From NCBI GenBank assembly GCA_015680905.1, contig CM027381.1, positions 67,383,501 to 67,447,500 on the forward strand: a DNA stretch of 64,000 bases, read 5' to 3'. This stretch comes from Coptis chinensis. Lineage: Eukaryota > Streptophyta > Magnoliopsida > Ranunculales > Ranunculaceae. The translations under genes were made by a program, and so were the position numbers. Positions 8,110 to 44,191 of this stretch are shown here, piece after piece. The notes beneath the pieces were generated by a model. The model was given only the letters and a program-made list of their open reading frames with translations. It was not told the origin of the DNA and did no database searches. Within the stretch, counting starts at the first letter, position 1. Every line of letters starts with the position of its first letter.

Positions 8110-8113
<4 letters not shown>
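6771..8113. mobile_element. TIR element (Mutator-like?) holding a ROP retrocopy
   Basis: The left end reads atggctaccttgatgactc and the right end, reverse-complemented, reads atggctacctttgactcc. Similarity continues inwards, with gaps, for roughly 200 bp on each side (for example 'cagggt..ggtcatttt' at about 6915-6940 and its inverse near 7985). It is bounded on both sides by (AT)n tracts, so the target duplication cannot be read. Long TIRs and a captured non-transposon sequence resemble Pack-MULEs, but the termini do not prove the superfamily. No transposase is present, so it would have needed an autonomous partner. Confidence 0.55.
6996..7803 (-). pseudogene. Processed ROP/Rac small GTPase retropseudogene
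   Basis: Plant ROP GTPases are plasma-membrane switches for polar growth and signalling. The minus strand from about 7803 gives [20 protein letters not shown] (switch II, G3 box DTAGQ), then [20 protein letters not shown], and GTKLDLRDD (G4 box TKLD). A Lys/Arg-rich tail follows, ending CSIL, a prenylation box, with stop at 7325-7327. Exons that are normally separate are fused, a 3' UTR of about 310 bp follows, and a T16 run at 6996-7011 is the poly(A) tail: an mRNA-derived copy. It is 5'-truncated (no P-loop or switch I). One A is missing after GEEL near 7490, and further stops lie in the C-terminal part. A 63-bp tandem duplication (repeat 'tttgaatctctttcgtcttc' near 7800 and 7863) abuts the 5' break. 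Confidence 0.9.

Positions 8114-8161
<48 letters not shown>
8113..8161. repeat. (AT)n microsatellite
   Basis: About 24 AT units between the right end of the TIR element and the next MITE. Confidence 0.9.
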
Positions 8162-8162
<1 letters not shown>

Positions 8163-8190
8163 TTATGCTATATGTGAGTGTTCGTATTGT

Positions 8191-8458
8191 CTTATTTTAA
8201 AATTTGATCAAGTATAAAAGACATCCCATCAGATCCATCTTTTCAAAATAATTTATATATATATAATTCAATATAAATTCGATTGTGGACAATATATATA
8301 TACATACTTAGCATAATATTAATATATATATAATATATATATATATATTAATATATATAATTAATATATATTATATATATAAGGAGTAGGAGTCGTTGTG
8401 CATGCAAATCACGTGACTGATGGGATGTCTTTTACACTTGATCAAATTTTAAAATAAG
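8191..8458. mobile_element. MITE with 42-bp near-perfect terminal inverted repeats
   Basis: Positions 8191-8232 (cttattttaaaatttgatca, then agtataaaagacatcccatcag) are the inverse of 8417-8458 with one mismatch. The interior is AT-rich, with several ta-palindromes (8250-8385), and has no ORF. A clear target duplication is not visible. Confidence 0.8.
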
Positions 8459-10729
8459 CTAAAGTTTGGCTTGTTTATTAAGTGAAGAGCCCAAACGCCC
8501 AACATGATAGCCCAACTGGTCCATGAGGGAGTTGGTTGTGTTCAAGTCTTGTGAAGTTGGAATTATGCAGGATTTATTCCTGACGGGCTTGGGTGGTGGC
8601 CTTTAGGCTAGGATTGGTTCCAACTTCCAACCACCCACAAACACATCCCTCATCAGTACGCCAAGTCACCGCTTTGACAAAGAAACAAAAAACAACCAAC
8701 AACAACCAGCCCAAACGGTTATGATATTCCAAACGGAGTTGCAAACATTAGCAAATAACTATTGTAGTTTAGGGGTGTTTATGGGTCGGTTTCGGTTCGG
8801 TTCTTATAGATTTCGAGTTCGATTATATTTTTAACCATTCCGACGTTATTTCGGGTTTTTTCCTATATTTAGAAACCATACCTATTAATTAAGTCGGTTC
8901 CGGTTTCTTCTCGGGTTATATATTAGTATTGTTAAAATTACTTTTTAAATTATTTAACCGGTATACAAATTGGTTTTTAATTACACTTATCACTAATATT
9001 TTTGTCATCTCATAAAAAGTAATGGTCCTAATAAATTCAATAATCTTTAGAAGTTATCTAAAAACTTTAAATACATCTCATGGACAGTAAATATGTACAC
9101 ATATATTATACTATACGTACATGCCTCCTATATACCACACTATATTTTAATATGTAAAATAATAAGTATATGTACTACGATTGTTAGCATTGCACGTAGT
9201 CATTATCCTATACTAGCTAATATGCACGCATTCTGGGCGTCAAAATCTCAAAGTCTTGGGATGTGTTTGTTTAATGTTAACATGCAACTTATCTAAGATC
9301 CTTGTAATTGCCTAGTAACTGTACCATCTTCTTAGCACTTAGTATGGGAGAAAATTTTGAAACAACATAATTTATTTATCAGTTAAAACAAAATCATTTA
9401 TTTTGTCTACATATTCACCGTCTTTTTTTTATCGCTATAATTTTAAGTGATAATATGGATAAATGAACAATAAACTACTACAATATTCATATGCAAATGG
9501 ATATATAATATAATAAAAAAATTCATAGTATTCCAGTTTAATACACATTAGACTATATGCATGCGGGTCAAATAATCCCATCAACAGTGATCTTCTCTCT
9601 TCTATAGTCATCAACAAACTCCTCGGGTTCACATCCCTAACACTTCAAGAGTACATAATATTTTCGCAGTACACAAATTGTAGTATACTATGTGCATGTA
9701 GTGCACACAAATAAGAGTGAGACTCTGTGCATTTGTTCAACGTATAGTAACTGAAGAATCCAAAGTCTAAGCAAGGCAGAAGTGGTGGTGTTGAGTTTTA
9801 TGTTGCAACTCCATAACGTTTGGAAACCTGCAGTTCATATAAAAGTTGGATTTAGATAGTGACCTCCAACCTATCAACACATTAACACAAAGATTCTACT
9901 TGTGATGGACTCACCCTTTTATTTGTCCAAATAACTTTGATAAAAGCTCTTGACTCACTCTGTTAATGAAATTTCTTTTAAGGATCTTTAGTTCCGCAAT
10001 CTGCATAACTTAAAAAAAACTTAAAAAAAAAATTTCAAATAAATGTTGGATTTAATAAAACAAAAAAAATATCAGGATTTGCAGTCATGATTCATCTACA
10101 TCCAATTTACTATTAAGAGGGGAAAAAAAAAAATTAGTTAAATTCATGCATCATTCAATTGGAATAGGAGAAAAAACAATTAGTTACATATAAAATGATA
10201 CATAATTACCCCTATCGGAATGATGCTTTCTAGTTTCTACTTTCTACTCAGTACCACCATAAATTATCAATCTTCAAAAGGTTTCCATTTCAATTCCTAC
10301 AATCCTATTCCTAGCCAAGTGTTGGGCAACACCATTGTAATTGTTTACGAAAAATGGTTTACATAAATGCTGTGGAGAATATGACGTTGTGGAAGCCATT
10401 TGCCGTCCTTTATGTATGACCACCAATACTGTAGAACTTTAAAATTGCATCAATAAAAACATTCCCAACCAAAAGAAGTAGAGGAAGGAGAGGAATGAAA
10501 CACCACCAATTTGACAAATTTTAGAAAATCAAGTTGAAACCTCACAAAATGTTTAGTGCCTAATCCTAAATAATACAGTAACAATATTAGACCAACATAA
10601 AAACATCAAAAAGGGTAATTCTACCATAGTAATTAATCCAAGGAAACAGTGCATCCTCACCACAAATTAAGCTGGTACAAATTAAATGGCTAAAGGAAAC
10701 ATCAAGGTGATGGAAAAGGCCAAGCCCAA
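8459..10729. other. Intergenic, no gene recognised
   Basis: 2.3 kb without a convincing coding frame. A stretch at 8769-8900 resembles the GC-rich end of a hAT-like element (aggggtgtttatgggtcggt), but no matching right end with a target duplication was found. The rest is AT-rich unique-looking sequence with poly(A) tracts (10010-10130). Confidence 0.4.
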
Positions 10730-11808
10730 CTAAAAATCATCATCATCCTCCGCGGCAATGTGCTTTGCAAGTTCCTGTTCCTGTTGTTGTCTCTCTCTCT
10801 CTCCTCTTCTTAGCACTTTCCTTCTCCTTTTTTTGGTTGTTCGACGGGAACCTCAGGGCACGCACGGCCTCATTGTGCATGTTGAGGCAGAAGGAAATCC
10901 TCGAGTTGAATGCAAACTGAGGCTCATTTGTAGAGTATACATCTCCAGTTTCCTTTGATACCATCCACCCATTTGCATGATCTATTGTAGCATCAATTGC
11001 ACCGTCTCGAATTGCCTTAGCCACAATGCTCTCAAAGATCGGCAATAGGATTCTCATAATTCAACATCAATTTTTCAGCAACATCTTTTAGTGAGATACC
11101 CGAATAAGAGATGCTGATGTTACGTAACCCTGTCTTTATGACATTATATCGCAGCCTAACAATCAAGTTGTGGGTTCGATTTGAATTGAAAGTGCTTGCA
11201 AACTTGTCTGCAATATTTCTGAACAGCTCCAAGTCTCCCACACGAATAGCCTGAAAAATACATTCCACATTGGTTAGCTCCACAAGAATCACACTTATAA
11301 AGGTAAGGCATATAACTAATGACTCCTCAGCATACACACCAAACTTTTACAAACAATTGAAGGGTTCAGATCTAGGGTATAATATGTCAATATCCTAACT
11401 AAGACAGTACATGTCATCCATTTGCCAATATGGATATGTTCTTTTAAATTTTAGAAAAGTTGGAAAAATGAAAAGGCAAACACATCCCATCGACCAGAAG
11501 GAATCAATGCATGCTAGGACTTGAAGTTACTCTTTTGGAAGGGGGGAGTCCCCAGACCTCTCCAAACTCCAATATCACAAGGCAGAAAGTTTTTTAGAAT
11601 ACACAAAAAATTATTAAAATTAAGCAGGTTTGTGTTTAAGAGGAAAGAATATCTTAAATGACTCCCGACTTACATTTGTAAGCTCAAAGTATGGCCTCAA
11701 AGCCTTCTTCATTCCTTTCTGCATGAACACAATCCTCTCAGGAATTTCCCCTAGCAGTAGCCGAACTATCACAGCCCATTTGTTGCACTGGACTCGGAAG
11801 CCAAACAC
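10730..11808 (-). pseudogene. RPN3: 26S proteasome subunit RPN3 (PSMD3-like), 3' fragment
   Basis: RPN3 is a PCI-domain lid subunit of the 26S proteasome. The minus-strand exon at 11674-11808 gives FRVQCNKWAVIVRLLLGEIP and ALRPYFELTN with a GTAAGT donor. After a 423-bp intron (acceptor TTTCAG at 11251-11253) the last exon starts AIRVGDLELF. It continues through DKFASTF and TGLRNISISYSGISLKDVA into [20 protein letters not shown] and [20 protein letters not shown]. The acidic end, EDDDDF with a stop at 10730-10732, is reached only after two frameshifts: one extra base at about 11031-11036, and a GA-repeat expansion at about 10790-10803. Everything upstream of FRVQCNKW is missing, with an abrupt loss of homology near 11810. 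Introns are kept, so this is a genomic-DNA copy. It is not functional. Confidence 0.92.
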
Positions 11809-13640: not shown

Positions 13641-14306
13641 GATCGAATTTTAGTTAGTTTGCATCTCCTAAAGGTTTGTGTTTTTTTTTCTTTGTTTAAA
13701 AAGACTTATTTGTTTTAAGAAATGAAACACATATCATTATCGTTGTTATTGATATACTATTGTTAATGCGAATTAATATTGTATAACGTTGTGACTTTTT
13801 ATTGCTTTATCAAAAAATTTGAGTATATTATTATTGTTAAAATTGTGAGTTTTCACCATTCGTTTTACTGAGTAATGAAAGTTTTCATCCTTTAATTGGA
13901 TGCACTTCTTGGTGAAGATGTTGGTTTGTCGTGTTGAGGGTGTTGTCTATCAATTCTAACAATTTTTTTTTATAAACTATGTTTTGTTCAACATGGTGAG
14001 GGTGTTGGTTTGTCGAAAATGTTATTAGTGTGGTGATTGTCTAATATAGGGGGGCAGAACTACTGAATTTAGAGTGAAAGTGAGGGGGTGCCATAAACAT
14101 AGTAAAAAAAATTAGTAGCATATCGACTCATGAAATTTTTGATTATATGGCTTTCACTACCACAATTTTAATTTAATTAGTATGTTCTTGGTGATGTAAT
14201 ATTACTCATTTGTGCGTGTGTGCTGCAAGTTGTATTAGTTAGTTAGTATGACACTTTATTTGATATGCAAGTGGCATTTGTATTGATTTATTTTTTGTTG
14301 TAAAAG

Positions 14307-16712
14307 ATGTCTACGAAAGTGCCAAGCAAGGCATGGATGAAGGCACCGACGTTATCTACGGAATACATTGAAGGTGTTCGTTCATTCATTAAATTTACCC
14401 AAAATAGTTTGGGGAAAAAAATTGACTGGTACTGCTGTCCTTGTGTTGACTGCGGTAACCAAGAGAAGAGATTAGCTGAAGATATTTTTTACCATTTGAT
14501 TCGTAAGGGTATAACAAGCTCTTACACATCATGGGTTCAACATGGAGAGCGTTCTTCCAGAAAAAATGTCAATGCTAGTACCTCAACTTATGTCGGTAAT
14601 GAAGAGATGCTTCCAAGAATGGTGGAGATGGTGAACGATACATTTGGGCATAGTCAACCTAATGACTTGGATGCATGTCTGGATGAGGTGGATGAGAATC
14701 AAGATGAAGATGATTCTCCGATGGTGATATTTAAGCTAGATGATATTCAAATCAATATACATGAGGATGTTCGGTACAAGAAATTGATGGAAGATGCATT
14801 ACAACCCTTGTATCCTTCATGTGAAGGTGAACATTCAAAGTTGTCAGCAACAATTGAGCTATTGGGGATGAAGTCTAGACATCGGTGGTCCAATAATAGT
14901 TTCACACAGTTACTGGGATTCTTAAAGAGGATTCTCGCGGATAAGAGTACATTGGCTTTAAAACGGATAGTGCTAAAAAGTATGATAAAGGCATTAAGTT
15001 ATGAAGTGTGAGGTTATCCATGCATGTCCAAATGATTGTATTTTATCTTGGGGAAGGAAAATGAAAATAGAGTTAGTTGTCCCACATGTGGTGCGAAAGC
15101 AGATGGAAGCCAGCTGATGAATCCAAGCCAAGGGCTAAACCTTTGCCAATGAAGAAGCTAAGATATTTTCCTTTAACAGAAAGGTTGCAGAAGATGTATA
15201 GTGTGCCGTGGCTTGCTGAAAATATGACATGGCATGCAAAATCAGTTCCAAACCAAAGTCATATCGGCACCCAAAGTGGATTCTTCTTGTTGGAAGTCCG
15301 TTAATTATCGGTGGAGCGATTTCTTTTGAGCCACGAATGTTCGATTAGGACTTGCAAATGGATGGATTTAATCCATTTGGTAACAACAATAGCATTCATA
15401 GTTGTTGGCCTATAATGATCGTCCCATACAATCTTCCTCCATCCTTGTGCATGCGCAAAGAGTTTGTAATGTTAACACTATTGATTCCAAGTAATCCAGG
15501 AGATGAAATTGATGTTTATTTGCAGCCGCTTATTGAAGAACTCAGAAACTTGTGGTCCAAGGGGGCTGAAACTTATGATTCTTGCAGTAAGAAGACTTTC
15601 AACATGAGAGCAATTTTATTGTGGACTATTCACGATCTTCCAGCATATGGTCATGTTTCAGGACGTAGAACAGCAGGAAGGTGCGCTTGCCCAGTTTGTA
15701 GTGAAGGGATAGAGTCGAAATGGTTAACAAATGGGAAGAAATTTTCTTACATGGGGTGTAGGAAATTTCTGAAAAACAAAACCATCCTCCTTCGAACCAA
15801 AATCCCAATTTAATAGGAAGGAAGAACATGGAGAGCATCCTCGTCGTTTGGTTGGTTCAGTAGTGAAGCAGAAAATGAGCAAAATTCTTTATGTATACGG
15901 TAAGGTGAATGGTAAAAAGAGGAAGAGGGGTTCAAACGAGATTAAGTTGACTGGTTGGTTGAAGGATTCCATCTTCTTTAAACTGGATTACTGGGAGGTA
16001 TTTATTACCCTTTCTTTTTAATGTTCTATGTAATAGAGCACTGTAATTTATTGTTGACCACATCCATAAACTTCTTCTTGTTGCCACCATATCCTTGAAC
16101 TTCTTCCTGTTTTTAGGCTTTTTCTTGTTGCCGGTACCATCCTTAGACTTCTTCCTGCCACTAAAAAAAGAAAATATCACCTTCCCTTTGGATTTTCTGG
16201 TAGTACCTCTATATCCATTTCCTTAGTGTTGGCCTCACCCATTGGCAGTTGATCAGACTTGTAGGTCTTTAGGGTAGCAATGCCAAGTCTCTGTCTTTAG
16301 GCCTCACCCTTTTTGTTTCTGTATTATGCTCTTTTGATATTAAAGTAAATGGTTACAGCAAGACTAGTTGACCAGTCTTTTATCTCAAGCATGTCCTGCT
16401 ACTAGTTACTAGTATTGTAATTATATTTTGCATATACTAATACTCTTCTCACATTTACTACAGTATCTTCCTATTCCACATAATGTAGATGTGATGCACG
16501 TTGAAAAAAATGTTGCAGAAAATCTCTTCTCTTTAATCATGAACACTAGTGAGTCGAAGGATGGTATGGCAGCACGTAAAGATCTGAAGGCTATGAAGAT
16601 CAAAAAGAAGTTGTGGCCTGTGAAAATTAATGGGAGGTTATCGTATGCTGAGGCAGGTGCTTTGCGAGCTGCTTGCAAAAGACTTTCTTTTGCATCTGTG
16701 TACTCTAACTGA
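14307..16712 (+). pseudogene. CACTA (En/Spm) TNP2-type transposase, decayed
   Basis: The start at 14307 opens 234 codons with a transposase-associated domain: YIEGVRSFIKF, then WYCCPCVDCGN and a WVQHGE block about residue 75. The TNP2 core follows in shifted frames: IHACPNDC and SCPTCGA (15012-15110), LRYFPLTERLQKMY (about 15150-15200), then GFNPFGN, IMIVPYNLPPSLCMRKEFVM, DIDVYLQPL-like, AILLWTIHDLPAYG and ACPVC (15352-15760). The last part is KRKRGSNEIKLTGWLKDSIF, then an intron at 15998-16463 (GTATTT..CTACAG), then LPIPHNVDVMHVEKNVAENL. The frame stops at 16710-16712, well short of the usual 800-1,000 residues. At least three frameshifts lie between 15000 and 15350. It encodes no active enzyme. 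Confidence 0.88.
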
Positions 16713-28380: not shown

Positions 28381-29534
28381 CCATCTAGGGACTATAACAA
28401 CCCCAATTTTTAAACAACATAAATTATATTATTTGAATTGAAAATAACTATTATATTATGAAGTATAGCTTGTTCTAGAATTTGTTTGGCTGTTGTTGAT
28501 TTTTCAAAATTGTTTTTACTTAAATTTGTTTGTTAGAACTTTTGTAGGTATTTTAGAATCATTTTTGGGCTTGAAAACATTGTTAAAATGTACCCATTCA
28601 TATAGGTATGGACCTTGGGTGTTTTTAGACCCATTTGAGGCCCATAGGTCAACTTAAACAGACTTAAAACCTTGAATAAACAATACCTGCGAATTTTCTC
28701 TGTAAAAATCTTATTATTCAAAAACAAAACTCTAGCCTCCATTAAAAAGAATATTTTTTATTGAAAGAAATAAAAAGAAGGGGGAGAATAAGAAAAGGGA
28801 TTGGAGAAAATGAAGCATTGATATTCTTTTGCAAATTCAATTTCAAGTGAGTAGTCTAAACCTTATTATTTTTAAATTTAATTGATTAGTTATCATATGA
28901 ATTATATTAGTGATGTATTGAATTTATTTATTGGAAATTTGAAGTGAAAAATTGTTATGTTGATCAAAGCCAAAAAAGAAAAGAAAATGGCATACTGTGT
29001 TAAGTTAGTGACGTTGAGATTTCTTTTGATATAAATGAGTTTATATGGTCGGTGGTGTCTGCATCACTTATTTGCTTTTGAAGTGGCTTATAGATATGAG
29101 AATAAACATTTGAAGTGTCTATGAATTAGAAATAGCTTATATATGTATGAGAACTAATTAGTTGAAGCGTCTATATGAATTATTTGCTACTGAAGTGTCT
29201 TATATGGTCGGTAATGATCTAAGGAATATTTGATTGTAACAACTTGTGCTAACCTTCATGATATTTAAAATATGAAATAAGTGGTGATGTTTACGTAGGA
29301 ATATGTGGACTTAAATTCTGTAAGTCCAAGCAGGAACTGTTTTGACTACCTACGAGGTACACCTTAACTTATTGCTCACCTAGTTATAATAAGGCTAAGC
29401 TAAACTAAGTCAAACATTAATGTACATGGGCCTTAACCTATATATTAGTTTTGAATCTCTTTAACTATTGGTTCTCTTACTACACCATAACAAGGAATTT
29501 CTAACAATTGCAATTTCTCATTTGTAACACATAT

Positions 29535-29625
29535 ACATTCGTTACTAAATTAATAACAGTTATAATTCCGTTACAAAATTACTTAACCGTTAGTAAATTA
29601 CCTGAATTATTTTGTAACGTTTATC
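29535..29625. repeat. Left sub-terminal repeats of the CACTA-type element
   Basis: Several short copies of tcgttactaaat, ccgttacaaaa, accgttagtaaat and ttgtaacgtt lie within 90 bp and mirror those at the right end. Confidence 0.7.
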
Positions 29626-30776
29626 GAGATATTAACTAATGGATGAGCAAGTGTGACCGATGTTAAATTATAAATAGAAAAATTGAGACCAATTAAAAAA
29701 AAACATAATGAAAATAGGGTGAAAATTATAGCGGGATTGTTTTCACCTCCCGCTCATTAGAATTAGGTCAAATGGTCTTTCTTCTTTCTTTTCTTCTCTT
29801 TATTTCTCAAATCTAATTCATGACTAATGAGAATTAGTTTTTTTTTTTTTGTTGATCTGCTAGGGTTGTTCAAGTTAGTTGGTTTGGTACCCAAAAGGAC
29901 CAACCTTAATACGTCAATGAAGGTCTTTAGCAACAAAACCCTTGCGACAACGGAAGTACTCAACAAATCAATTATCAGGTCTCTCTTTTCAACTAGCTAG
30001 GGTTTCAAGTAGTGATTTTGTTTCATCTCTCCCCAATTTCGGTTATCAGGTATTTGTTTTTTCTCTATCTCTCACCTGATTTCTAAAAGTTTGATTTTCT
30101 TCTCCAATTTAAATAAAGCCCAGAATTGTAGTGATTTTCGTTGGTGAGAATTTTGATAAAAAAAATTGTTTCTTGTTTTGTGTTAGTCCCGAACGAAGTG
30201 ATTTTCGTTCTATTTCAATTATGGTTCCAACATCTGAAATACATTTGCACGGTTTTGAATCTCTGTAGAAGTAGAGGAAAGGGCTCTATTTTTTGTGGGT
30301 TATAATTTTTTTTTTTTTTTTTTTTTGAAGAATTGGTGGTCAGTCTGCCAGAAAACAAAGTCTTCTGGTGGATTGACATTAGCAACAATATTTCCCTCCC
30401 TTTGTTTGATGTTGGTACTCTTTCTGATTTGGCAATTAGCATGGATGGTAGTAGTTAATGATAGTAGCCTCCTTTGATAGCAAAATTCTCGCATCTCGAA
30501 AGTTGCTCGAACCTAATATGTTCAAGATTCCACTTGTTTGTAGCAGTCTTGATCAATAAGAACTTGGTAGTTTGAATTGTTTGAAATTGAGTATTTAGGG
30601 TGCTCAACTTGAGTAGGGGAAAATGGTTATGGGGAAGCATTATGCTTGTAGTGACTTGTTGAACGTATTTTTTCTTTAACCTTTTCTTAATCTGAAATCA
30701 CTTATTGTTTAGTTTATGTAAGTTTGTTCATTGCTGGTTTTGTTTTATTAATGAGTTACTAGTTGTGGTGTTAATT

Positions 30777-31475
30777 AGTTTGTTCAAGGAATGTCCACAC
30801 CCAAATGACAAGTAACGTATGAAACACAGCCAAGAACTTGGACTTAAACCTAGTTAAGTTATGGTTCCAAAATCGACGAACTCAGATGAAGGTGGGTGTT
30901 CTTAGCTTTTATTTCTACTTTCTTTATTATGCACGTTTTCCAAACAATAATGGTATCCATGTGTAGTAAAAATAAATTTGTGGATGGATATGAATTAAGA
31001 AGAAGCTCATTAACTTGGCTCAACTGTTTGGTTGATACTCATTAATGACCAATTCTTGTTCTTCTTCCTGTTTAACCCTTACTTAATGCGATAACACAAA
31101 TGGTGCATCAACATATTAGAATTTTGGGTGTTATGTTGATGCACACTGGGAATACCGTACCCACGTAACTTAGGTCCTCTTTTACAAAATTTAGATCCTG
31201 TTATCTAATTTTATTAAAAAGATTATATAAGCTTCACTTCTATTTTAAAGTTCATAGCATTCTATCTTGTTATGTTGTATGTTTAGGCACAACAAGACAG
31301 AAGCAATTATGTGATACTCAAAGCCGAAAATGAGAACCTAAAAAATGAGGGTTTCAGGCTAGAAGCCACGTTGAGGAGCAAATCCTGTCCTAACTGTGGA
31401 GGTCCGGCAATTCTAGGAGAAATGTCATTCGATGAACAACATCTTCGGATTGAAAATGTCAAACTTAAAGAAGAG
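30777..31475 (+). pseudogene. Class IV HD-ZIP transcription factor fragment (HDG/PDF2-like), captured
   Basis: HD-ZIP IV proteins are nuclear regulators of epidermal cell fate. Exon one (30777-30891) encodes homeodomain helices 2-3: SLFKECPHPNDK, then a damaged stretch with two stops and a lost phase, then WFQNRRTQMK, with donor AAG|GTGGGT. Exon two (31287-31475, acceptor TTTAG, donor GAG|GTATT) is fully open: [20 protein letters not shown], then [15 protein letters not shown] and [17 protein letters not shown]. That is the truncated leucine zipper with the CPNCGG loop unique to this class. The N-terminal arm of the homeodomain and the START domain are missing. The wording resembles the HDG11/HDG12 side of the family. 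It lies inside the CACTA-type element, so it was picked up as genomic DNA. Confidence 0.9.
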
Positions 31476-32228
31476 GTATTATTTATTCCTTTACTCAATA
31501 TTTTTGCTGATATATATAATACTAGCTAGGCTATTCAAGTGACAATGAATGGTAAGTGCATGTTAGTCTTATACAATTCCTAAGTGTATGCAATTGCAAG
31601 ATTACTGCGGTTGTCTGAAAGTCTTAGTTAATTTGTTTGTGAAAATACCCTGTTATGTCTTGATTTTTCTGTTGAATGAACTGTTGGGTTTCTTTTAGAA
31701 CACCGTAGTCACATAGCACAGGGTTTCTAGGCTGAAAGTGTTGTCTATGAGTTTGTAGTGGTGCCCTAGGCTTAGGCCTTGTACCTTTGGGGTTTATTCT
31801 TTCTTAGGCTTTGAACAAGGACTTGACTTTGGTTCAGGAAAATCAGGTGCTTCTATACCACTTAGTACTTTTTCTTATTCTTTTGTTTCTGTTGCTACAC
31901 ATGGCTAGTATCTTATTTCATTGTTCCGTGTTTATATGATTATTCTATTGTAGAATGTTGTTTTATTGTCTTATTTCAGTGGACATCACCACCAAGCTGT
32001 TTTTATTAGTCTATCTCGATTCTAGAGTAGGAAGCTGCTGGTGCTATTATAGATGTAAGTAATTCTTTTCACTACACCATTTGGGCTATTGATCAAGGAC
32101 GGTATTGTATACTTTCGCTATTGATTTTGTTGGCTAGTTTGATTTTGAATACATACATATTAGCGGATTCTAAAATGTAATAAGCTAAAGCTGAGCTGTT
32201 GAAATGTGTTAAAATGATATAAGGTATA

Positions 32229-35200
32229 TGTCACACCCCGAATTTCGACAGAATTCGGAAAAAATATTATTTGTTCCCGACTCTTCGATCTCCGAGGTGT
32301 GACGCACTCTCCACTTCCAAAAACCCATAAACAGTTTAAATATGTGGATAATTAAAAACCAATAAAAATTTTAACTTAAACAAAAGTCCTCTTCATTATA
32401 AAAATTAACAAATGAAAATGCAAATAACCTTATCTCAACTGAAAATCTATATCACCTCAAAGGAAAACAAAGCCTATCTTGAAATGCGACGCTAACGCAA
32501 ACCACAAGCACCAACCAATCTTCTTCAACACTAAACCTGTCAAGACTTATCAACTATGTTCATTTAATGAACACACCCGATAAGCAAACATGCAAATCGG
32601 GTCAGCATTATAAAAATACTGGTGTGAGTAGCTTTAAAATACAACATATATTAATACATATACATACACAATCCATAAGGCAGTTAGTTCCTCCACCAAG
32701 GCGCCTTAACTCCCAACAACTAATACGACATTCTTAACTACAATAAGTAGGGCAGGTAGTTCCTCCACTGAGGCGCCTTAACTTCCAACAACTAATATGA
32801 CATTCTTAACTACACTAAGTAAGGCAGGTAGTTCCTCCACTGAGGCGCCTTAACTTTCCACTAACCACACAACAAACTATACGCATAATAAAAAGGCATT
32901 TAGTTCCTCCACGAGGCGCCTTAGGTTCTAACTAAACTAATAACCAGCCAAGCATATTCTATACTTACCGCATTTCATGCTCAATTACAGAGTGGGTCAT
33001 CTCTGCACAAGTAATTAGTTTGACCCACCCTTCTGCAAAACCATATACAATCATCTATCTAAAATCTATCTAAAGATACATTATTAACCAACACATTACC
33101 ATAATTATATTAATTAAGGCTTTCTTTGCGTGTCCCTAAAATCACGTCGTATCTATGTCTTACCTAGTTTCCTTGGCTACCACAATCGCTTTCCAACGCA
33201 GAACATGTACATCCACATGCCTCCCCTTACATAATGAACCACTCCGTGCGTAACTACCCTGAGCGGGATGCAGCACACCAGGTAACCCTCACACGAAAGC
33301 CATTATGTAAGTACTGCCACTATTCGGCATAAAATATCGCGCGTCTCATTCTAGTTTTGCGAACGGAATAATCAAGCCACCATTCGGCTACGATTGCCCA
33401 ACACATGGGTCAATTAACATCTTATATATACACCCTATACAGGGGCCAATCATATCACATACGCCCACACAGGAAAAATCACATGAGTTGTGGTAGCTAG
33501 TTTCTAGGATTTTCGTTACGTAATTTATTCAGGTGTCATACATTTATTACTTATAATAATTCCACTATATCACGTGCAGGTCAAATACCTTATTGCACTA
33601 TGCCACAATATTTATAAATATCTTAATTATATCTCATAACCATTTTCATTCTTTCACGTGCCAATATATTATTGCACTACGCCACACTCCCGTGGGAAAT
33701 ATCCACAAATACTCTACTAGCATCTCACAGATAAAATAATGGAGTGTCTATACCTTTATTTCTCCACAACTATTGCATTTAATATATATATATATATATA
33801 TCCCAATATATTATATAATGTCACAATATCAACGTCAAATCTTAATTAGATAATGACAACCAAATTTATACAAGCTTCCACAGCATTTTAGCATTTGAAT
33901 TGCCCATACAATTTACAACATAAAACGTAGCACAATTAAACAGTCCACAGTCCACAGTCCACAAATCAAATCCCCAAAAATCTAAAGTCCATGAATCTAA
34001 GTCCGTATATAATTGAATACTCATAAAAACATATATATCTAAGTCTTATAAAAATTCCCCGCTTGTTACGTGCCAACATATTATAAGCTTTACACACTAC
34101 TCACGTCAAATCTTAATTAGATAATGACAAACAAGGTTATACAATATCGACAATATTTTATTATTGCAATTGTCCATAAAATCAAATATGTGAAAAATCT
34201 AGAAAAAGTCAACATTCCACAGTCAACGGTCAACGGTCAAAGTCAATGGTCAACAGTCAACGGTCAAAGTCAAACTGTCATTTCCATGTTCAACAGGTTC
34301 ATGGTCATAGCCATGGTTCATGGCTAAGGGCAAAGGTGCATGGCTCATGGGCTCATGACTAAGGTAATGGTTCGGACCCAACTGGCCAAGCCCAAACCCT
34401 AAAACCCTGGCCCTAAAAGTCTAAACCAACTTATTATTCAACCTGACCCAATTGGGGTCATAAGGACCAACCCACATAAAATTAGAAACCGGCCCAAAGA
34501 AAAGTAATTAGTTTTGGCCCAAACAACTTAAACTAAACCGGCCCAAAAACTTTGAACTGAAACCGGCCCAAACAAAACAAAATAGAATTGGTCCAAACTT
34601 AACAAAATTGGTCTGGCCCAACAACTAGAACTAAAGCCCAACAATCTAAACCGGCCCAAGTAACTGATTGGTTCGGCCCAAGGCCCAACCGGTCATCTCC
34701 TTCCTCCAGCAGCCACCACCGATTCGGCCACCGCCAATACCGATCGCCACTCAAAAATAACCAACCGAAATTGGTTAGGGGGAAAAACCCCACAACATTA
34801 ACAAAATCGAAACCCTCAAATTCTTGAATCCAAACCCTTCATCCAATCTAGATCTCAAAATTCACACCGCCATTAACGCCATTTCCAAGATTTTCCCAAG
34901 CTTTAATAGCACCCATTAATAGCACCCATCCCAATCACAGTTTAATAGTGCAAAAGCATACATCAACACAAAATCATAACAGTTCAGATTTCTAATGGGG
35001 CTAGCGCCTCCATTACCGACTTCTTCGAGTCTTCCAACAGCCCCCAAACTCCAACACACCATCACCCCACTACCAATCAATTCAGTGTTGACCTACCTCA
35101 AAACCAAATCTTGGGATATGCACGAAAATCCAAACTCCTCACTCCTCACCAAACTGTCTCGACGCCATTAACGCCTACAAGCTTTGACAGAGCTTCGACA

Positions 35201-35762
35201 GCCCGACCTCAATAACTCGATACAAAGCCAAAACAAAAGGGTTCAAACAACCCAAAAGACAGGATGATGCCATTATCTCGGGCTCACGACGCCACCATTG
35301 ACGCTCTGTCGAGCTTCAACAGTCCAAACAGTTTCACTACTAACCCAAAAACAATATACTAATATTTAACATACCAATAATTTAACTAGTTTAAAGAAAA
35401 TAACGAGACAGGACGAAGAAGAATGAACAATAAAACGATTTCTGTATACCGGTGAAGTAGAAAACTAAATACTCACTTGTATTAACAGCTCCTACGAATT
35501 CCTCCTAATCCGAGTCGTCGCGCTCCAACCCCGCTCGAGCAAACAAGCCGCCTCCATTTTTATTATTTTTTTTATTCTCTAAAAACCCTATTCTCTAGAA
35601 CAATGTGATTATATACTTGGGTTTGAAACCCAAGCCCAATACAGACTCGGGCCCAGAAACCAGGCCCATATATCTCAAATCCAATCCAATCAAATATTAA
35701 ATAAATACTTAAATTAATTAATTAATAAATAAATATATATATATTTTAAATACTGGCGTTAA
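32229..35762 (-). mobile_element. C2: giant solo-LTR-like unit inside the CACTA-type element
   Basis: It begins TGTCACACCCCGAATTTCGA at 32229 and is co-linear with C1 to ..tactggcgtta near 35762. The left flank is gtata and the right flank atata after a one-base loss at the end, so the target duplication is decayed. It has four 'tagttcctccac.gaggcgcctta' blocks (32684-32925) and a TTGAC cluster at 34205-34275. The conserved ATG of the short ORF is at 35557-35555 on the minus strand (MEAACLLERGWSATTRIR..). Confidence 0.75.
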
Positions 35763-38109
35763 ATATATCTGTTATTTACATTGGATCACCCTGAAAAAGG
35801 AATGGAGTAAGTAAAGTAGTATGCTGTATAGTTGAAAATAATGACTAAATCCATCTATTGAATCCATGTTGTTACTAATTGTTTGGTAACTTAAGGCAAA
35901 ATGTTGAATATTATTGTTGTTTTGGAAATTTAGGGAAAAATGTTAATTATCACTAATTTTGTGGAAATTATTGTCAATGACAATAGTGATGCAATATCTA
36001 GAACAATTATGATATAAGAGCAATCATTTTTGTGTACTTGTGTATCAATTAGATTTCCTGAACAATTATTTTCGAGTAGTAATGCATAACTTGATATTTG
36101 AATTTGATAGATTAAAGTTCGTTAGTTTTGAATAGGTCACTAACTGAAACAATACATTGATGTTGTGCCCATTGTTGAATGAATTTGACATATATCAAGT
36201 GTGTGTCACTTTAAATGATTACAAATTGCAGACAGGTGTTATACTACTACCATAGGAAAAGTATGTTTTTTCAATATTATAATGGATGTTTATGGTAATG
36301 GAATGGTTATTCTGGTGTGCTAAGTTGGTATCACATTTTGTTCTAGCCAATAGTTTTCGCGACTTTATTTCTACGACACTTTTATAAAATGCAATATCAT
36401 TTGGTTGAATTCTTCTACCATATTTTTGGTACGGATTATTTATACTTCTTATAATCTCTATTCAACTATGAAGGGAAAGGAAGCAGAAAATGTTGCAATG
36501 ATATGGTTTCTTGTTTGTATTTGAGAAGATTCGCTGTAAGAAAATAGTAGGGAGAGAAAAAGAACAACATCAAAGAAGAAATCAGAGAGGAAAGTAAATA
36601 TTAGATGTAATTTTTCTTTAGGATGGAAAAACCAAGATGGGAATTTCTGACTCTAGAACTCTCTGGGTGGGGATGTAAAAATAATAATAGAAGAAAGTAA
36701 TGAAAAATAAAAGAAACCTATAGATATCCAGTCCTGAGGCCATAGTGCTGATTGCTGAGGCCTATGCCTCTGTCGTTTAAGGCGCTCTAACTCCTGAATG
36801 GGTGAATGACCTTGAGGAATATGCTAGTGTGGCAATCCTGAGTGATAAGCACTCTGCTAAACCTCTACTCAGTACCTAATTTGTTGTATAACACTCTCTA
36901 TTAGGGTGCAGACTGGTGTAATGATCTGACTAATGCTCGCTATCGTGGTTCTCACCTGAAATAAGGATCCTGTTAGTTCTTTAGTATTTGTCGACTAGGC
37001 CCCCCTCGAGATGCCACCTCAAAACCTTCTTGAACTTGCCTTGGTATTTTGCATGATCCACCATTCCACCAATTGGAAAATGTGTGAAAGAAGGCGATAT
37101 TAAACATACATATAGTCCTTCCCTAAAGTGAACAATAGCCATATCCATAGTTGGAGGATACTCGTTCTTTAGAAGAGATCAATGTCAGTTTTACTTTTGT
37201 GACTTTGGCAAATTTCAATTGTTGAAGTGATTGAGTTTATGTGCAGTCTTCTACTCGTTAAGCTCTTATTAGAGTTTTGTGTTTGATTTATTCCAACATT
37301 TAATATAAAATAAATGTCTCTCTTTGTGTTCTTTTTCCTTACTGATTTTTGCCCTTCTGACCTGCTGTGTCCTTGTATATTCTTTTCCTTAGCAAGTTGC
37401 TAGTTCCAGTTAGCCATCTTTTCTCCAATATCCAACTTGATTTAGTGACTTGATTTTCATATTCTTTTCTCCAATATCCAACTTGAAGGGTCTAAAATAA
37501 GGAGGAGATGTCATAGAGTTTTGGTTTTTGCAAAGACCTTAATGTTTTGGAGATTTGGAGATTGAAGACTTTGTCTCCCTCATGGGTAGGCTTGGCATTC
37601 TTCCCCAATTAGGAAGGCTCTAGATAGGCAAATGACAAGATAACAAGGATGGTACATTCAACATTCTTGACCCACTCTTTTTACTTTTCTATTTTTCTTG
37701 GATTCTATACAAATGAGTTTTGTCTATTCCCTACTTAATTCTCTTCCTTCTATTAATTATGGCAAAACAAAATTGAGGTGTTAAACTTCTTATAGACACC
37801 CTGTTACAAATCATTTATGTTTGATTTTCTTGAAGTGCTAGAGAACATAATAAAGCATTTAAAGATTAAAATACACACAAAACAAACAAACACACACACA
37901 CACGTGTCTGTCTTTGAATATTTTACTCCTTTTTTCTTGTTTAAGTTTGATTTCATCCATATACTGGAGCTCAAGATTTTAGGGTCAACTATATTATTAT
38001 CACATTAAATTTTAGTACTTTTTCTCGGTATATATTAACTACTGTTGCTGGCTTGCTGCTGCTGTTGGGACTATCACAAGCTTCTGATTGTAATTTTGTA
38101 ATGAAACAG
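35763..38109. other. Interior of the CACTA-type element, nothing recognised
   Basis: 2.3 kb of mostly unique-looking sequence. A stretch at 36720-37090 has a different, less AT-rich composition and may be an old insertion. No coding domain, and no candidate for the missing first exon of GOT1, was recognised. Runs of acac at 37870-37905. Confidence 0.35.
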
Positions 38110-39557
38110 AGATCGGACTAGGCTTGACTGGTTTTGGCATATTTTTCTCATTTCTGGGGGTAGTATTCCTATTTGACAAGGGGCTTCTTGCAATGGGAAA
38201 TGTAAGTCAATTGTTGCAGCTTCTGCTCTTTGTTTTGCTTCTGAGTTTATTTCTTTTATTCTATGCATATTATGTTTTGCTAATTTTTACCTAATGTTTA
38301 CTTAGCGATTAACTCACTTTTGTTTGATACTTAATCAGATCCTCTTCTTGTCAGGGGTGATGTTGACCATTGGACTTAAATCCACCATGCAGTTCTTCAT
38401 GAAACGTCAAAATTACAAGGTTTAGTACTCTTGGTTCCCTTTCATTTTTTTTTAGTTCTCATTTTTAATTAATTAAACAGGGTACCATATCCTTTGGAAT
38501 TGGCTTCTTCCTGGTCCTCATTGGATGGCCGATTATGGGAATGATCTTGGAAACATATGGTTTCATTGTGCTTTTCAGGTCTGAAGCTTCTATCTTCTAA
38601 GTATATTCCAAGTGTCAGTGATGAATTTTGATAGCTGACTTTGTTTTTCATTTGGCAGTGGCTTTTGGCCCACACTGGTAGTATTTCTGCAAAGGATGCC
38701 TATTGTTGGCTGGATCTTCCAACAGCCCTTTGTGACGTCGGTGAGAACCATTGAGGCTCAACTTTTTATTACTATCAAAGATTTAAAATAAAATGAAGTT
38801 GCATGTGTTGACACAGAACGCCAAATACTGTCATGTGTTGATCAATGGGCCAACATAACTACACAACGATTTTGGTGTGAAGTCATGGGCATTTGCATTA
38901 TGCAAAGTGTTTTTTTTGAGTTTTCTATCTCTTGCTATAAGCTTTACTACAAGTTCAGAGATGTGATGGGTGGGAATTGTTATCAGAGTTTTGGAAAAAC
39001 AACATTTTAACATAAATATGCCTTCATTATTGTAATTATGGAGTACTATTTAGCAAACAACAAAACCAATTTTAACATAAATATGCCTTCATTATCCAAT
39101 GGTTGTCATAATTATGGATGGCGGATCCAAGGGACTTTGTGTATTTTGTTAAGCAAGGCATCTATCCAAAAATCAACCAAAAGGCGTCACGTCCCAAACC
39201 AATTATTTGGGCTTATAGATATAGTTGGTCAGTTATTTCAATGAATATTTTACGCCTATAATGAACAATGAGTATGGCTCAGTAGTTCCTATATAAGTTT
39301 TATAAGTAAGTTTGCAGTCTCTGGTTACTATCTATCACCATAGTTCAAAAAGTTTCTTTAATTAAGTACTCTGCTACTATGTTCTCATTTTATTTTACCG
39401 CAAAGGAAACTTAAAATACTGCGATAGTTTCATCTCGGTTGCGAACTTGGAATTTTTCGATCTGTCATCTGGTATGATCTCATCTTCATTTTAATGATTG
39501 TTTGTTTTGTTTGTGCAGTTCTTGGATAGGTACAGAGGCAGAAGGGTTCCTGTGTGA
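38110..39557 (+). CDS. GOT1: GOT1 vesicle transport protein, exons 2-6, captured by the CACTA-type element
   Basis: GOT1 is a small four-helix membrane protein of the early secretory pathway (ER-Golgi vesicle traffic). Exons are 38110-38201 (IGLGLTGFGIFFSFLGVVFL), 38339-38419 (ILFLSGVMLTIGLKSTMQFF), 38481-38578 (GTISFGIGFFLVLIGWPIMG), 38659-38740 (GFWPTLVVFLQRMPIVGWIF) and 39519-39557 (FLDRYRGRRVPV and stop TGA). All ten intron borders are GT-AG (CAG|, |GTAAGT, |GTTTAG, |GTCTGA, |GTGAGA). The 130 or so codons read through without a stop or frameshift, giving the four hydrophobic segments and the basic RYRGRR tail. Exon 1, with the ATG and the first ten or so residues, was not found: exon 2 starts in phase two. 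It could be expressed as a chimera from an upstream promoter in the element, or be a young pseudogene. Confidence 0.9.
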
Positions 39558-39824
39558 TGAATTTGATTAGAACAGAAAGAAAATTAGCTGGACTACTCCT
39601 TGTATGATAAAAATTTCACGGAGGCCAAAATTTTGATTTGGTTCACATGGTGGTACCATATTTTTACATGAGAAGTGTCTAAATATTTAGATTTTTTGTC
39701 CAATTTAGATGATAACATTGTAATATTGTATGAAATTTTAAGTTTTGAATTGTTAGAGTTTTGTAACTGTAATTGTTGTATGAATGTGCACCAGTACAGG
39801 TGGCCCATATTTTTTTTATACAAT

Positions 39825-40235
39825 GAAAATTCGTTAGTAATGGATAGTGAACCGTTAGCAACAATTTTTTTTTTAAACAATGAAAATTTGTTAGTAACGG
39901 ATACTAAACCGTTAGCAACAGAAATTTGTTTTATACAATAAAAATTTTTAGTAACGGATAGGAAACCGTTAGCAACAGAAAACCAAAGTGACGTTTATAT
40001 CCGTTACTAATAGAGGATAAACAAATTGGGTAACCGTTACTAATCATTTCTAATTAACGGTTACTTATCCGTTACTGAAATTAATTTCAGTGACACTTTA
40101 TAACCGTTAATAAATTTTGTAACGGATAATAAACGTTACAAATATTTGTTACTAATATTTGTCACGCTTTTGTGTCAATGCAAGATAACCGTTACTAATA
40201 TTTTTTGTAACGGATGTATATCCGTTACAAATAGG
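39825..40235. repeat. Right sub-terminal repeats of the CACTA-type element
   Basis: More than a dozen copies of the core gttagtaacgga / ccgttactaa in direct and inverted orientation over about 400 bp, ending just before the terminus tgttatggtgtagtg. Confidence 0.85.
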
Positions 40236-40577
40236 CTGTTATGGTGTAGTGATATGCTTTTGTATAATGAACCTACAAGTCAGACTTATACAAGACTATA
40301 AGCCTAATCTTTACATCGGTTTTAAACTTATCTCTTAATTTTCTTTTAGTATAAAAGACCTACCTGAGCAATGAACCCTTCTATTAAATTAGATAAGTAT
40401 TTAAATGGGCGTACACTTAGTTCTAATATTGATGTTGTTTTGTTCCTGTTCTAGTTAGGAATTTTGTCTGATTTGGAGACAATTTTCAGTGTCTTTAGAA
40501 ATTGATATAAGTTTTGATTAAAACATGTTAAATAAGTTTTAGTTGTCCTATTTCAAACTCAAAAAGCCCCATAGCAT

Positions 40578-41250
40578 TTCGGTTTACGTTGAAGGAGTTA
40601 CACCCTTCGGAAGTTAACACGTCAGAATTTTCTGATTGTAGAAATTCAGTCTGTGTTTGGTTTGGAATCGTGTTTTCACATAGTTAGGGTCAGATTCAAA
40701 CTCTCGCCAAAACATGATAAAGTGAGTGTTCTGAGTCTTCTTTCCAACTCAATTAGCCTCGTCACATTCTGAGGTCTGTGGAGATAGATATAATGTCTGG
40801 AAGTTTGGTTGACATAAAACAGTGCGTCAAAAATCAGTTTCTATGCACTGTGTTCAAGTCCAGTTTTAAAATAGTTAGGGTGAGAGTTAGAATTTTTATA
40901 AAACATAAAAAAGTAACATCTGGAAGTCTACTTTATATTCCAATTGGCTTCATCGCATTCGAAGGCCTGTGGAATTAATTATGACATATGGAAGTTTGAC
41001 TGGCAGAAAACAGTGCGACAGAAATCAGTTTATGTGCACTGTGTTCTAACCTAGTTTTTGAACACTTAGAATGAGATTGAGTATTTTTGTAAAACATAAA
41101 AAAAATAAGTTTTGTGTGTTATCTTTTCAACACAAAAAGCCTCAATGTATTTGGATACCTGTGGAAAGAGTTGTGTCATTCGGAAGATAGTCCATCAGAA
41201 ATCCAATTTGCTGAAATTAGGATTTTTACCGTTTTCAATATAAGTTTTTT
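40578..41250. repeat. Imperfect tandem repeat, about 192-bp period, in the large LTR-like unit
   Basis: Four units are recognisable by 'cattcgaaggcctgtggaat'-type starts (about 40578, 40765, 40957, 41148) followed by 'aaacagtgcg.cagaaatcagtt' and 'atgcactgtgttc'. Blocks like this are common in long chromovirus LTRs. Confidence 0.65.
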
Positions 41251-41803: not shown

Positions 41804-43029
41804 GTGAGTAGCTATTTTGCTATTTCACCGGATTTATGGTTTTCGGGTATCGGTGTATACTGTCTAATGTTTATGTTTTGTATGTACTGCTCATTATCCT
41901 GTTGTATTGGACTTCGTGTCATTTGTATTATTTAACTTTGTTGAATTTCGTTTTTTGTAATTAAACTGTGGAAGCTCTGTTCAAGCTCTAAACAGCGAAT
42001 GGCGTCGCCTGTCACTTTGTTTTTTTTGTAAGTTGTCAGCTTGAATGGTTTGTAGTGATGGGGTCGTGTAGGGTGTGTGAGGGCGATAGATGGGAGCTGT
42101 CGAAGCTCCATTAATGGCGGCCAGAAATCGCCAGTTTAAATTAAACTTGTTGCTTGGGTTTTGGTTGGAACTGGTTGTTGGGGATGGATTGTTGGTTTGG
42201 AGGGGTTATTGTTGTTTTGTTTGGGTGATGGTAAGGTGCTGCCAAAGCTTGAGAAGGCTTTAATGGCGCCGAACGCCATTACTGTGATTCTAGGGTGGGG
42301 CGATTTTTGGTAGTTTGAACTGTTTTGGTTGTGTCTTTGAATGTTGGGTTGTTGTGGGTTGATTGTTTGATGAATGGGGGTAGTGAGGAGGCGTGAATGC
42401 TGTTGGAAGCTTGTCGCAGCCATTAATGGCGGCAATGAAGGTTCCAGATCCAGTTTTGGTTGAGGATTTTAAACTTAAGAATTGAGTTTTTGGCTTTTAG
42501 TAAAGTTGTAGGGTTGGTGTTGGGGAGTGATTTCGGTTGGTTGAAATGGGAGATGGTGGTGGCTGCTGGAGGAAGGAGATGACCGGCTGGGCTTGGGCCT
42601 GGGTCGGTTTCTCTTGGGCTTGGTTGGTTAGTTGGGCTGAAATGTTTTAAGTTCTTGGGCCCTAGCTTGTTTTTGTTTGGGGCGGACTAATTTGGCTTAG
42701 CCTTATGGGCGATTCGATTGATGTTGGGCCCATTTTGTTTTAAATTTGTGGACCCGGTTTCAATTTAAAGTTTTTGGGCCGAATCCAATTAGTTTTTGGG
42801 CCAGTTCAGTATAAGTTTTTGGGCCCGTTTCTAATATTGCTTAGGGCCAGTCCATAGGACTTAAAATAGATCTAATTGGGTCTTTAAATGTTTAGACTTT
42901 CGGGTTATAAGGTTTGGGCTTGGCCAGCTGGGTCCGAACCATTACCTCGTCATGAGCCTATGAGCCACGACTTTGACCTTAGCCACGAACCATTGCTATG
43001 ACCCTGAACTTGTCGAACATGGAAACGAC

Positions 43030-43490
43030 AGTTTGATTTTGACAATGACAGTTTGACTTCGACCATGACGTGTTGATTTTGACTTTGACCATGATGTGTT
43101 GACCTTGACCATGATGGGTTGACTTTGACCATGATATGTTGACTTTGACCATGATGGGTTGACTTTGACCATGATGTGTTGACTTCGACCATGACGTGTT
43201 GATTTTGACTTTGACCATGATGTGTTGACCTTGACCATGATGGGTTGACTTTGACTTTGACCATGATGGGTTGACTTTGACCATGATGTGTTGACTTCGA
43301 CCATGACGTGTTGATTTTGACTTTGACCATGATATGTTGACCTTGACCATGATGGGTTGACTTTGACTTTGACCATGAGGTATTGACTTTGACCATGGCA
43401 TGTTGATTGTGACTTTGACCTTTGACTTTGACGTTGACCATGACGTGTCGACTTTGACTTTGACCGTTGACCGTTGACTGTGGAATGTTG
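43030..43490. repeat. W-box (TTGAC) tandem array in C3
   Basis: About 20-21-bp units of the type 'ttgactttgaccatgatg.g' are repeated over 450 bp, with roughly 40 TTGAC cores by my count, most followed by C or T as in the WRKY binding site. The long open frames on the minus strand (HGQSQ/MVKVNxSWSK repeats) come only from this periodicity. C1, C2, C4 and C5 have short versions at the matching place. Confidence 0.9.
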
Positions 43491-44191
43491 ACTTTTCCAG
43501 TTTTTCACATATTTGTTTTTATGGATAAATGTAATAATAAAACGTTGTCGGATATTGTATAACTTGGTTGGTCATTATCTAATTTAGATTTGACGTGAGT
43601 AGTGTGTAAAGCACATATATATTGGGCTTTGATTGTGGACTGTGGACTGTCTAATTGTGCTACGTTTTATGTTGTATATTATATGGACACATGTAGTAAT
43701 AAAATGTTGTGGAAGCTTGTATAAATTTGGTTGTCAGTATCTAAGAAAGTTTGGACATTGATGTTGTGTATTTTTGACACGTGGCGATATTGAGATGTTA
43801 GGAGACGTTATATTCCTAATACGCTATACTAAAAATGTATGCGATACGTTGAAGTAAGTGTGACATGATATAATATGTTGAAGTATATATATTAATGCAA
43901 TATCTTTGAGAAATGTATATAAACGCCCATTATTATATATGTGAGATGCTCTATGAGGTAGTATAGTATTGATGAATATTTGCCCAGTGTGGGTGAAGTC
44001 TGATAATATATTGGCGTGAAATAATGAAAGTGGTTATGTGAAATAATTGAGATATGTCTAAATATGGTGGCTTAGTGCAATAAGGTAATTGACCTGCACG
44101 TGATATAGTGGAATTTTATTATGAGTCATTAATGTATGACACCTGAATAAATTACGTAACGAAAATCCTAGAACCTAGCTACCACAACTCA

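Follow-up and report, generated by a model that had tools for sequence, protein, structure and literature searches.

A probable multi-gene CACTA mosaic with a GOT1 passenger in the genome of Coptis chinensis

The DNA analysed here, referred to below as the window, is a stretch of 64,000 nucleotides from Coptis chinensis (GenBank assembly GCA_015680905.1, contig CM027381.1, forward strand, positions 67,383,501 to 67,447,500). The assembly comprises 935.6 Mb in 116 contigs, and a window coordinate equals the coordinate on C5 minus 67383500. The window contains a CACTA-type transposable element, and inside it lie sequences derived from several host genes, among them a nearly complete GOT1 gene (Table 1). 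The genome match searches described below score the best candidates only.

An initial annotation, made from the letters of the sequence, proposed a CACTA element on the basis of matching ends and dense subterminal repeats, and both are borne out. The 15-mer CACTACACCATAACA occurs twice in the window when up to two mismatches are allowed, as an exact copy on the minus strand at 40237-40251 and with 14 of 15 bases at 29478-29492; 100 shuffles gave a mean of 0.17 sites, with two sites in one shuffle. Genome-wide there are 1384 exact copies of the 15-mer (704 + 680), compared with 0 + 1 for the reversed control. The window has 17 sites of the short repeat CCGTTACTAA (up to one mismatch), where 3.29 would be expected; 14 of them belong to the left and right ends of the element, and inverted arms pair the left end with the right end. 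The left terminal region is collinear with C5:30531862-30532412 and C2:61355672-61356237, where it is about 90 bp longer, and its outer 250-300 bp are present at many further loci. Several features of a CACTA element are present: terminal inverted repeats, a 3-bp duplication, and short subterminal repeats in direct and inverted orientation.

The target site was identified by joining the two flanks (28877-29477 and 40252-40671) and searching the genome with the product. This gave 47 listed rows, from 40 scored of 375 candidates, and 28 of them cross the joint unbroken, the best at 94% over query positions 1-1020. The other rows are the window itself (2), the left flank only (7) and the right flank only (10). 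All four of the empty sites examined read GTT(C/A)T-CTT-TTGTATAATG. In the window CTT is found on both sides; ACTACACC follows directly after the left CTT, and ATATG lies ahead of the right CTT. CACTA elements are expected to generate a target site duplication of 3 bp. The segment 29479-40256 entered a dispersed repeat as a single unit, and CTT was duplicated. The earlier description of one element running from 29480 to 40251 therefore holds as to its unity, with the boundaries corrected by the empty sites.

Table 1. Features of the element and its target site, in window coordinates
Feature	Position	Strand	Basis
Left target site duplication, CTT	29476-29478		Alignment to 4/4 empty sites examined
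Whole CACTA element as inserted	29479-40256 (10.8 kb)	+	Joined-flank search, empty sites
Left CACTA terminal region, terminal C absent (ACTACACCATAACAAGG)	29479-29967	+	Genome matches
HD-ZIP IV-like block	29973-31575	+	Collinear at C9:64765480 (L019) except for a 127-bp insertion, 31100-31226
Homeobox exon, start approximate, broken	30783-30891	+	Alignment with 14 other copies
Zipper-loop-zipper exon, HD-ZIP IV type, open frame	31287-31475	+	Peptide matches in the genome
Multicopy unit	31595-32069	+	Genome matches (~15 loci); also in L010 together with the window's left end
Putative internal relic of a CACTA end, 22 bp, CACTACACCATTTGGGCTATTG	32070-32091	+	Genome sites, departure from relatives of the multicopy unit
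PEX1-type AAA ATPase intron piece, first part	32092-32229	+	92% to C9:83296620 (L074)
Later-inserted high-copy dispersed repeat, 3.5 kb, 4-5 bp duplication (TATAT)	32230-35763		Flanks contiguous in L074
PEX1-type AAA ATPase intron piece, second part	35765-35839	+	98.7% to L074
CACTA backbone unit	35832-36221	+	Common to C4:50672602, C9:22325534 and C9:55676164
Possible new first exon across joins	36215-36260	+	ATG, 13 new residues, GOT1 exon 1 tail R-K-K, GT donor
RAD51 remnant, 44 bp (exon tail 36219-36235 and intron start)	36219-36262	+	Matches L049/L050, L085/L086
GOT1 fragment, exon 1 tail to 3' UTR	36255-39655	+	90-93% in main pieces to C6:92411367-92415179
GOT1 exon 2	38110-38201	+	Comparison with C6 gene, frame check
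GOT1 exon 3	38339-38419	+	Comparison with C6 gene, frame check
GOT1 exon 4	38481-38578	+	Comparison with C6 gene, frame check
GOT1 exon 5	38659-38740	+	Comparison with C6 gene, frame check
GOT1 exon 6 with stop codon	39519-39557	+	Comparison with C6 gene, frame check
Filler, 7 bp, GOT1 3' untranslated region (UTR) to CACTA right end	39656-39662		Comparison with C6a, C6b and L047
Right CACTA subterminal region and terminal inverted repeat	39663-40251	+	Common to L044-L047
Extra bases ATATG between terminal repeat and right CTT	40252-40256		Empty sites
Right target site duplication, CTT	40257-40259		Empty sites

Next to the left end lies the HD-ZIP IV-like block. Compared with the 14 other aligned copies, its homeobox exon lacks 5 bp and carries an in-frame TAA, and the open homeobox exon of a related copy matches Pfam Homeodomain (3.3e-15). 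The zipper exon by itself has no Pfam match, and a comparison with solved structures gave no meaningful match; we take it to be of HD-ZIP IV type from its motif together with the homeobox neighbour. A genome search with its peptide gave 31 rows. One is the window, and 24 belong to 23 loci of the same repeat type (64-91% amino acid identity), which gives the block at least 23 further copies; the other six, at 41-54% identity, are candidates for true HD-ZIP IV genes. The initial annotation had placed HD-ZIP IV and GOT1 exons on the plus strand and envisaged a chimeric transcript. Both sets of exons are indeed present in that orientation, but the homeobox exon is broken, and with its stop codon and deletion it lends no support to an HD-ZIP/GOT1 chimeric protein.

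The part of the block from 30373 to 31575 is common to many loci, including elements of 8.1 kb with ends of a different family. Two such loci, read over 13.4 kb, are 97% alike for 8.1 kb, beginning exactly at CACTACACCAAAACAGG; a GTG duplication is found at one and none is evident at the other. From these sequences we interpret the 8.1-kb loci as CACTA elements with a different family of ends and the same HD-ZIP block as cargo. This family is represented by L021 with L075/L076 and by L022 with L077/L078, and one copy apparently lies inside a copia-type element. The homeobox exon is still open in several of its copies. The 127-bp insertion in the window block is absent from the other copies compared and holds the inverted pair GTGCATCAACATA / TATGTTGATGCAC.

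The HD-ZIP IV-like block is followed by the multicopy unit, whose junction shows the microhomology TGCAAGA. The relatives of this unit continue past the position equivalent to 32069 as TCTTACTTG or nearly so in the 11 compared of the approximately 15 loci, and the window switches there to CACTACACCATTTGGGCTATTG. With up to two mismatches, this 22-mer has 61 other sites in the genome (62 including the window), compared with one for the reversed control. We interpret it as an end from a further CACTA family that has stayed within the element.

Beyond this putative relic the window contains two intron pieces that adjoin each other in L074 with a 4-bp overlap and are separated here by the nested dispersed repeat. 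The repeat gave 7986 first-look candidates, its edges lie near query positions 29/30 and 3562 in many copies, and one of its ends starts with TGTCACACCCCG. In L074 the intron pieces lie beside AAA ATPase exons (Pfam AAA, 1.1e-13 and 1.8e-8). A joined pair of these exon pieces matches PEX1 at 1.1e-42, and CDC48-type proteins score more strongly when both AAA domains are counted. We presume the gene to be of PEX1 type from a motif that we take as deciding.

The backbone unit comes next, joined at TTA to the RAD51 remnant. In L079/L049 and L080/L050 the same unit lies upstream of the counterpart of 36219-36262, at a distance of 1.7 kb, and the window lacks the intervening DNA. The cargo of L049/L050 matches Pfam Rad51 (4.4e-13 and 2.4e-11; phmmer 2.9e-12); a further piece with a weak Pfam score (0.021) was set aside in favour of the better one. 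L049 and L050 are themselves CACTA-like elements with a captured RAD51 fragment. L085/L086 match 36219-36271, which is nine bases beyond the RAD51/GOT1 join, and had been considered as copies that cross this join; they continue as RAD51 and not as GOT1, which rules this out. We also rejected the idea that 36219-36262 is an exon preceded by a splice acceptor of its own, since L049 shows a RAD51 exon tail plus intron.

The largest gene-derived piece is the GOT1 fragment, which shares the microhomology GGAAA with the sequence to its left. The closest full gene is at C6:92411367-92415179; it has six intact exons, and Pfam Got1 is found in both proteins. The reading frame that starts at ATG 36215 runs intact through exon 6 for 145 codons plus a stop, and all five introns have GT-AG borders. 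The first 13 residues are new and are followed by R-K-K as in the C6 protein; a join has created an ATG in frame with GOT1, which is a predicted start, and the product would be an apparently complete membrane protein. GOT1 also has two partial copies, one at C6:95794 kb and one on C14, and C19 carries a distant paralogue. The genome search with the Got1 family returned five matches, which are other Got1/Sft2-family loci, and the split-exon GOT1 genes were found by protein search instead. The intact C6 gene has no match to the terminal regions of the element within the 17.5 kb examined, though a single CACTACA heptamer is present some 5 kb downstream of it (L070). The partial GOT1 copy on C6 is covered by L071/L072, where the joined stretch 7744-10802 is 98% and 96% identical to the intact gene and about 1.9 kb breaks the last intron.

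No transposase was seen in the element, in agreement with the initial annotation. One stop-to-stop frame of at least 100 residues overlaps the element, and it has no Pfam match. Among the 40 element frames of at least 58 residues, the 20 that were scanned, including that of the zipper exon, gave no Pfam match at E 0.01. An Rfam scan returned nothing at gathering scores.

We consider the element to be, very probably, a non-autonomous multi-gene CACTA mosaic of the Pack-CACTA type, assembled by fusion and end joining, with GOT1 as a passenger. By sequence comparison it holds pieces of at least four ordinary genes (HD-ZIP IV-like, PEX1-type AAA, RAD51 and GOT1), and the edges of its blocks are sharp, each being common to different relatives. 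All four gene-derived pieces whose sense is known are on the plus strand, which at n = 4 may be chance. What had been described as a double capture stands in that unrelated genes share one strand, but this view is too simple: the HD-ZIP block is multicopy and is found in other CACTA elements as well, and PEX1-type and RAD51 pieces are carried too. The initial annotation included neither these two pieces nor the nested repeat or the internal CACTA end.

The sections cited of two reports on Pack-TYPE elements describe a model in which deletion or mutation of the inner ends lets a pair of adjacent insertions be mobilised as one, together with the intervening DNA (PMC8903248; PMC13317346). Applied to the present locus, neighbouring CACTA insertions would have become one unit through the action of a transposase on the outer ends, the inner ends having decayed, with the relic at 32070 as what remains of one; an inner end at this position is what the fusion model predicts. 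The remaining joins show microhomology or filler, which points to end joining, and GOT1 would have been joined in this way, with microhomology on its left and filler on its right. Its donor would have been a GOT1 relative, functional and by then distinct from the C6 gene. A transposase supplied in trans would afterwards have moved the fused unit, whose cargo would be mostly inert, GOT1 being a passenger with a still open frame. Elsewhere in the genome, at C1:12975039-12975076 (L008, 1501-1538), two CACTACACCATAACA ends lie 23 bp apart in the same orientation, the tandem arrangement that the fusion model requires.

Several observations weigh against this reconstruction. The genomic sites of the 22-mer are putative element ends, called by their sequence. 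The GOT1 donor itself was not found in the genome searches. The best-candidate searches revealed no further copy of the mosaic, so that mobility after assembly rests on one insertion; no listed match spans the join between HD-ZIP block and multicopy unit or that between GOT1 and the right end. The absence of the terminal C on the left and the five additional bases on the right are imprecise for a transposase product. In addition, four of the ten rows that contain the right flank only begin at the joint, indicating that the dispersed repeat has relatives that differ leftward. Microhomology and filler at several joins would also suit a mosaic made in a single step by template switching, through replication or repair-synthesis errors within one CACTA element and without fusion. 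We regard this as rather unlikely, as fusion directly predicts an internal end such as the putative one, from another CACTA family, at 32070.

The state of the GOT1 exons bears on whether the passenger works. Compared with the C6 gene, 6 of 392 exon sites and 221 of 2850 noncoding sites differ (Fisher 2.4e-7). As read from the alignment, two of the six exon differences are nonsynonymous and four synonymous. The exons contain no indels, where 4.7 are expected, and the noncoding columns contain 34. Changes found only in the window (against C6b or C14) number 4/309 in exons and 152/1864 in noncoding DNA (Fisher 6.6e-7). For three parts of the mosaic that derive from transposable elements (TEs), each set against its closest pair of relatives, the corresponding counts are 12/390, 18/480 and 27/1072 (pooled, 57/1942); with other pairs the right end gives 18/493 and 26/490, and the HD-ZIP block 29/1072 to 65/1074. 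Window-only change is thus higher in GOT1 noncoding DNA than in the TE parts, both with the closest relatives (Fisher 1.2e-12) and with the most distant pairs (103/1954; Fisher 4.4e-4). Judging by this excess, the separation of the GOT1 lineage from the C6 genes seems to be older than that of the element from its TE relatives.

It is the closest TE relatives that properly bound the time since capture. At their rates, 7.8, 9.5 and 11.6 exon changes would be expected, depending on the part, against 4 seen (P 0.11, 0.04 and 0.01); pooled, the expectation is 9.1 (P 0.05; Fisher 0.13). With the most distant pairs 16.3 changes are expected (P 3e-4; Fisher 8e-4). An early view that strong selection had followed capture was downgraded, because changes on the stem of the C6 lineage are part of the counts and window-only changes are fewer in the TE parts. 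The constraint on the exons may largely be older than the capture, and the contrast between exons and introns can mostly be explained by capture from a functional GOT1 relative.

The alternative is that GOT1 is a working gene with a new first exon (MITNCRQVLYYYHRKK...), transcribed within the element and with its exons under selection since capture. It would account for the intact 145-codon frame with its GT-AG introns, the low exon divergence without indels, and the shortfall of exon changes calculated with the most distant TE pairs. Much of the divergence precedes capture, however, from a donor that was presumably functional, and with the pooled closest pairs the shortfall has P 0.05 (Fisher 0.13). 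We consider a working gene improbable. The weakest alternative, that the two ends are those of different CACTA elements lying nearby with ordinary host sequence between them, was first suggested by the mismatched triplets TCT and ATA that directly flank the ends and had been named in the initial annotation as an outcome that would contradict it, but it was overturned by the empty sites, barring loss of an identical segment from every one of those repeat copies, and is now hardly credible, as the uninterrupted rows and the CTT that flanks the unit when five extra bases are allowed derive both ends from one insertion.

Outside the element, the window contains the remains of a CACTA-type transposase gene at 14304-15813 (Transpos_assoc 3.3e-21; Transposase_21 7.3e-57, the latter part at 15349-15813) and a piece of a small GTPase on the minus strand at 7429-7827 (Pfam Ras 7.9e-27). 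CACTA elements are moved by transposases of the TNP2 type acting on their ends. Directly to the right of the element, at 40672-41053, are two tandem units of 191 bp that are 71% alike. Long minus-strand frames at 42950-43571 correspond to a short tandem repeat, similar in style to 34205-34267 in the nested repeat.

Comparable elements have been reported. Tgm-Express1, in the soybean wp allele, is a CACTA element that carries exonic and intronic fragments from five unrelated genes, and these fragments are spliced into chimeric transcripts, according to the portions of the report cited here (PMC1947982). The present element resembles it in holding several unrelated gene pieces. As described in those portions, Tgm-Express1 is 5.7 kb long and lies in an F3H intron, whereas the Coptis element is 10.8 kb long, contains a nested repeat and one nearly complete gene, and lies within a dispersed repeat.

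To the extent that Pack-TYPE elements are covered in the sections used (PMC8903248; PMC13317346), Pack-CACTA elements share with the element described here CACTA ends, the duplication, host gene pieces from several loci and a proposed growth by fusion of neighbours. They differ from it in that the full mosaic is seen once here, several CACTA end families contribute and the internal end relic can be read. Host gene sequence and a decayed internal end are present, and the frames scanned contain no transposase, as for Pack-CACTA. Clustering in packFinder asks for more than one element copy, in the section cited (PMC8903248); a single copy was seen here, and this is a pipeline criterion and not a biological one. 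CACTA-like elements of Chenopodium contain captured fragments as well, for example 80 bp of AP2 upstream of a transposase-associated domain, in the part of that report used (PMC8978399); the Coptis element is like them in its captured gene fragments and differs in that no transposase frame was found among those scanned. A literature search returned nothing on a CACTA element with GOT1 and, among the titles listed, nothing on capture of HD-ZIP sequence by CACTA elements.

The shuffling of genes by CACTA elements is already known, and the present element, as judged from its DNA, is a well-resolved further case of the Pack-CACTA and Tgm-Express1 kind that leaves the accepted picture of CACTA gene capture unchanged. 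It provides a base-level account of how a multi-gene CACTA element is assembled, showing where its blocks come from, which joins bear microhomology or filler, and a putative internal end of the kind expected under fusion. It also provides a simple test case for whether a captured, nearly complete gene may survive on a start exon formed at a join of this kind. There is a slight chance that GOT1, cut inside its first coding exon, received from transposon DNA and a scrap of RAD51 an in-frame replacement start exon and is a working gene. If this improbable case were true, a transposon would carry a working secretory-pathway gene with a TE-made N terminus, which could be spread to new promoters.

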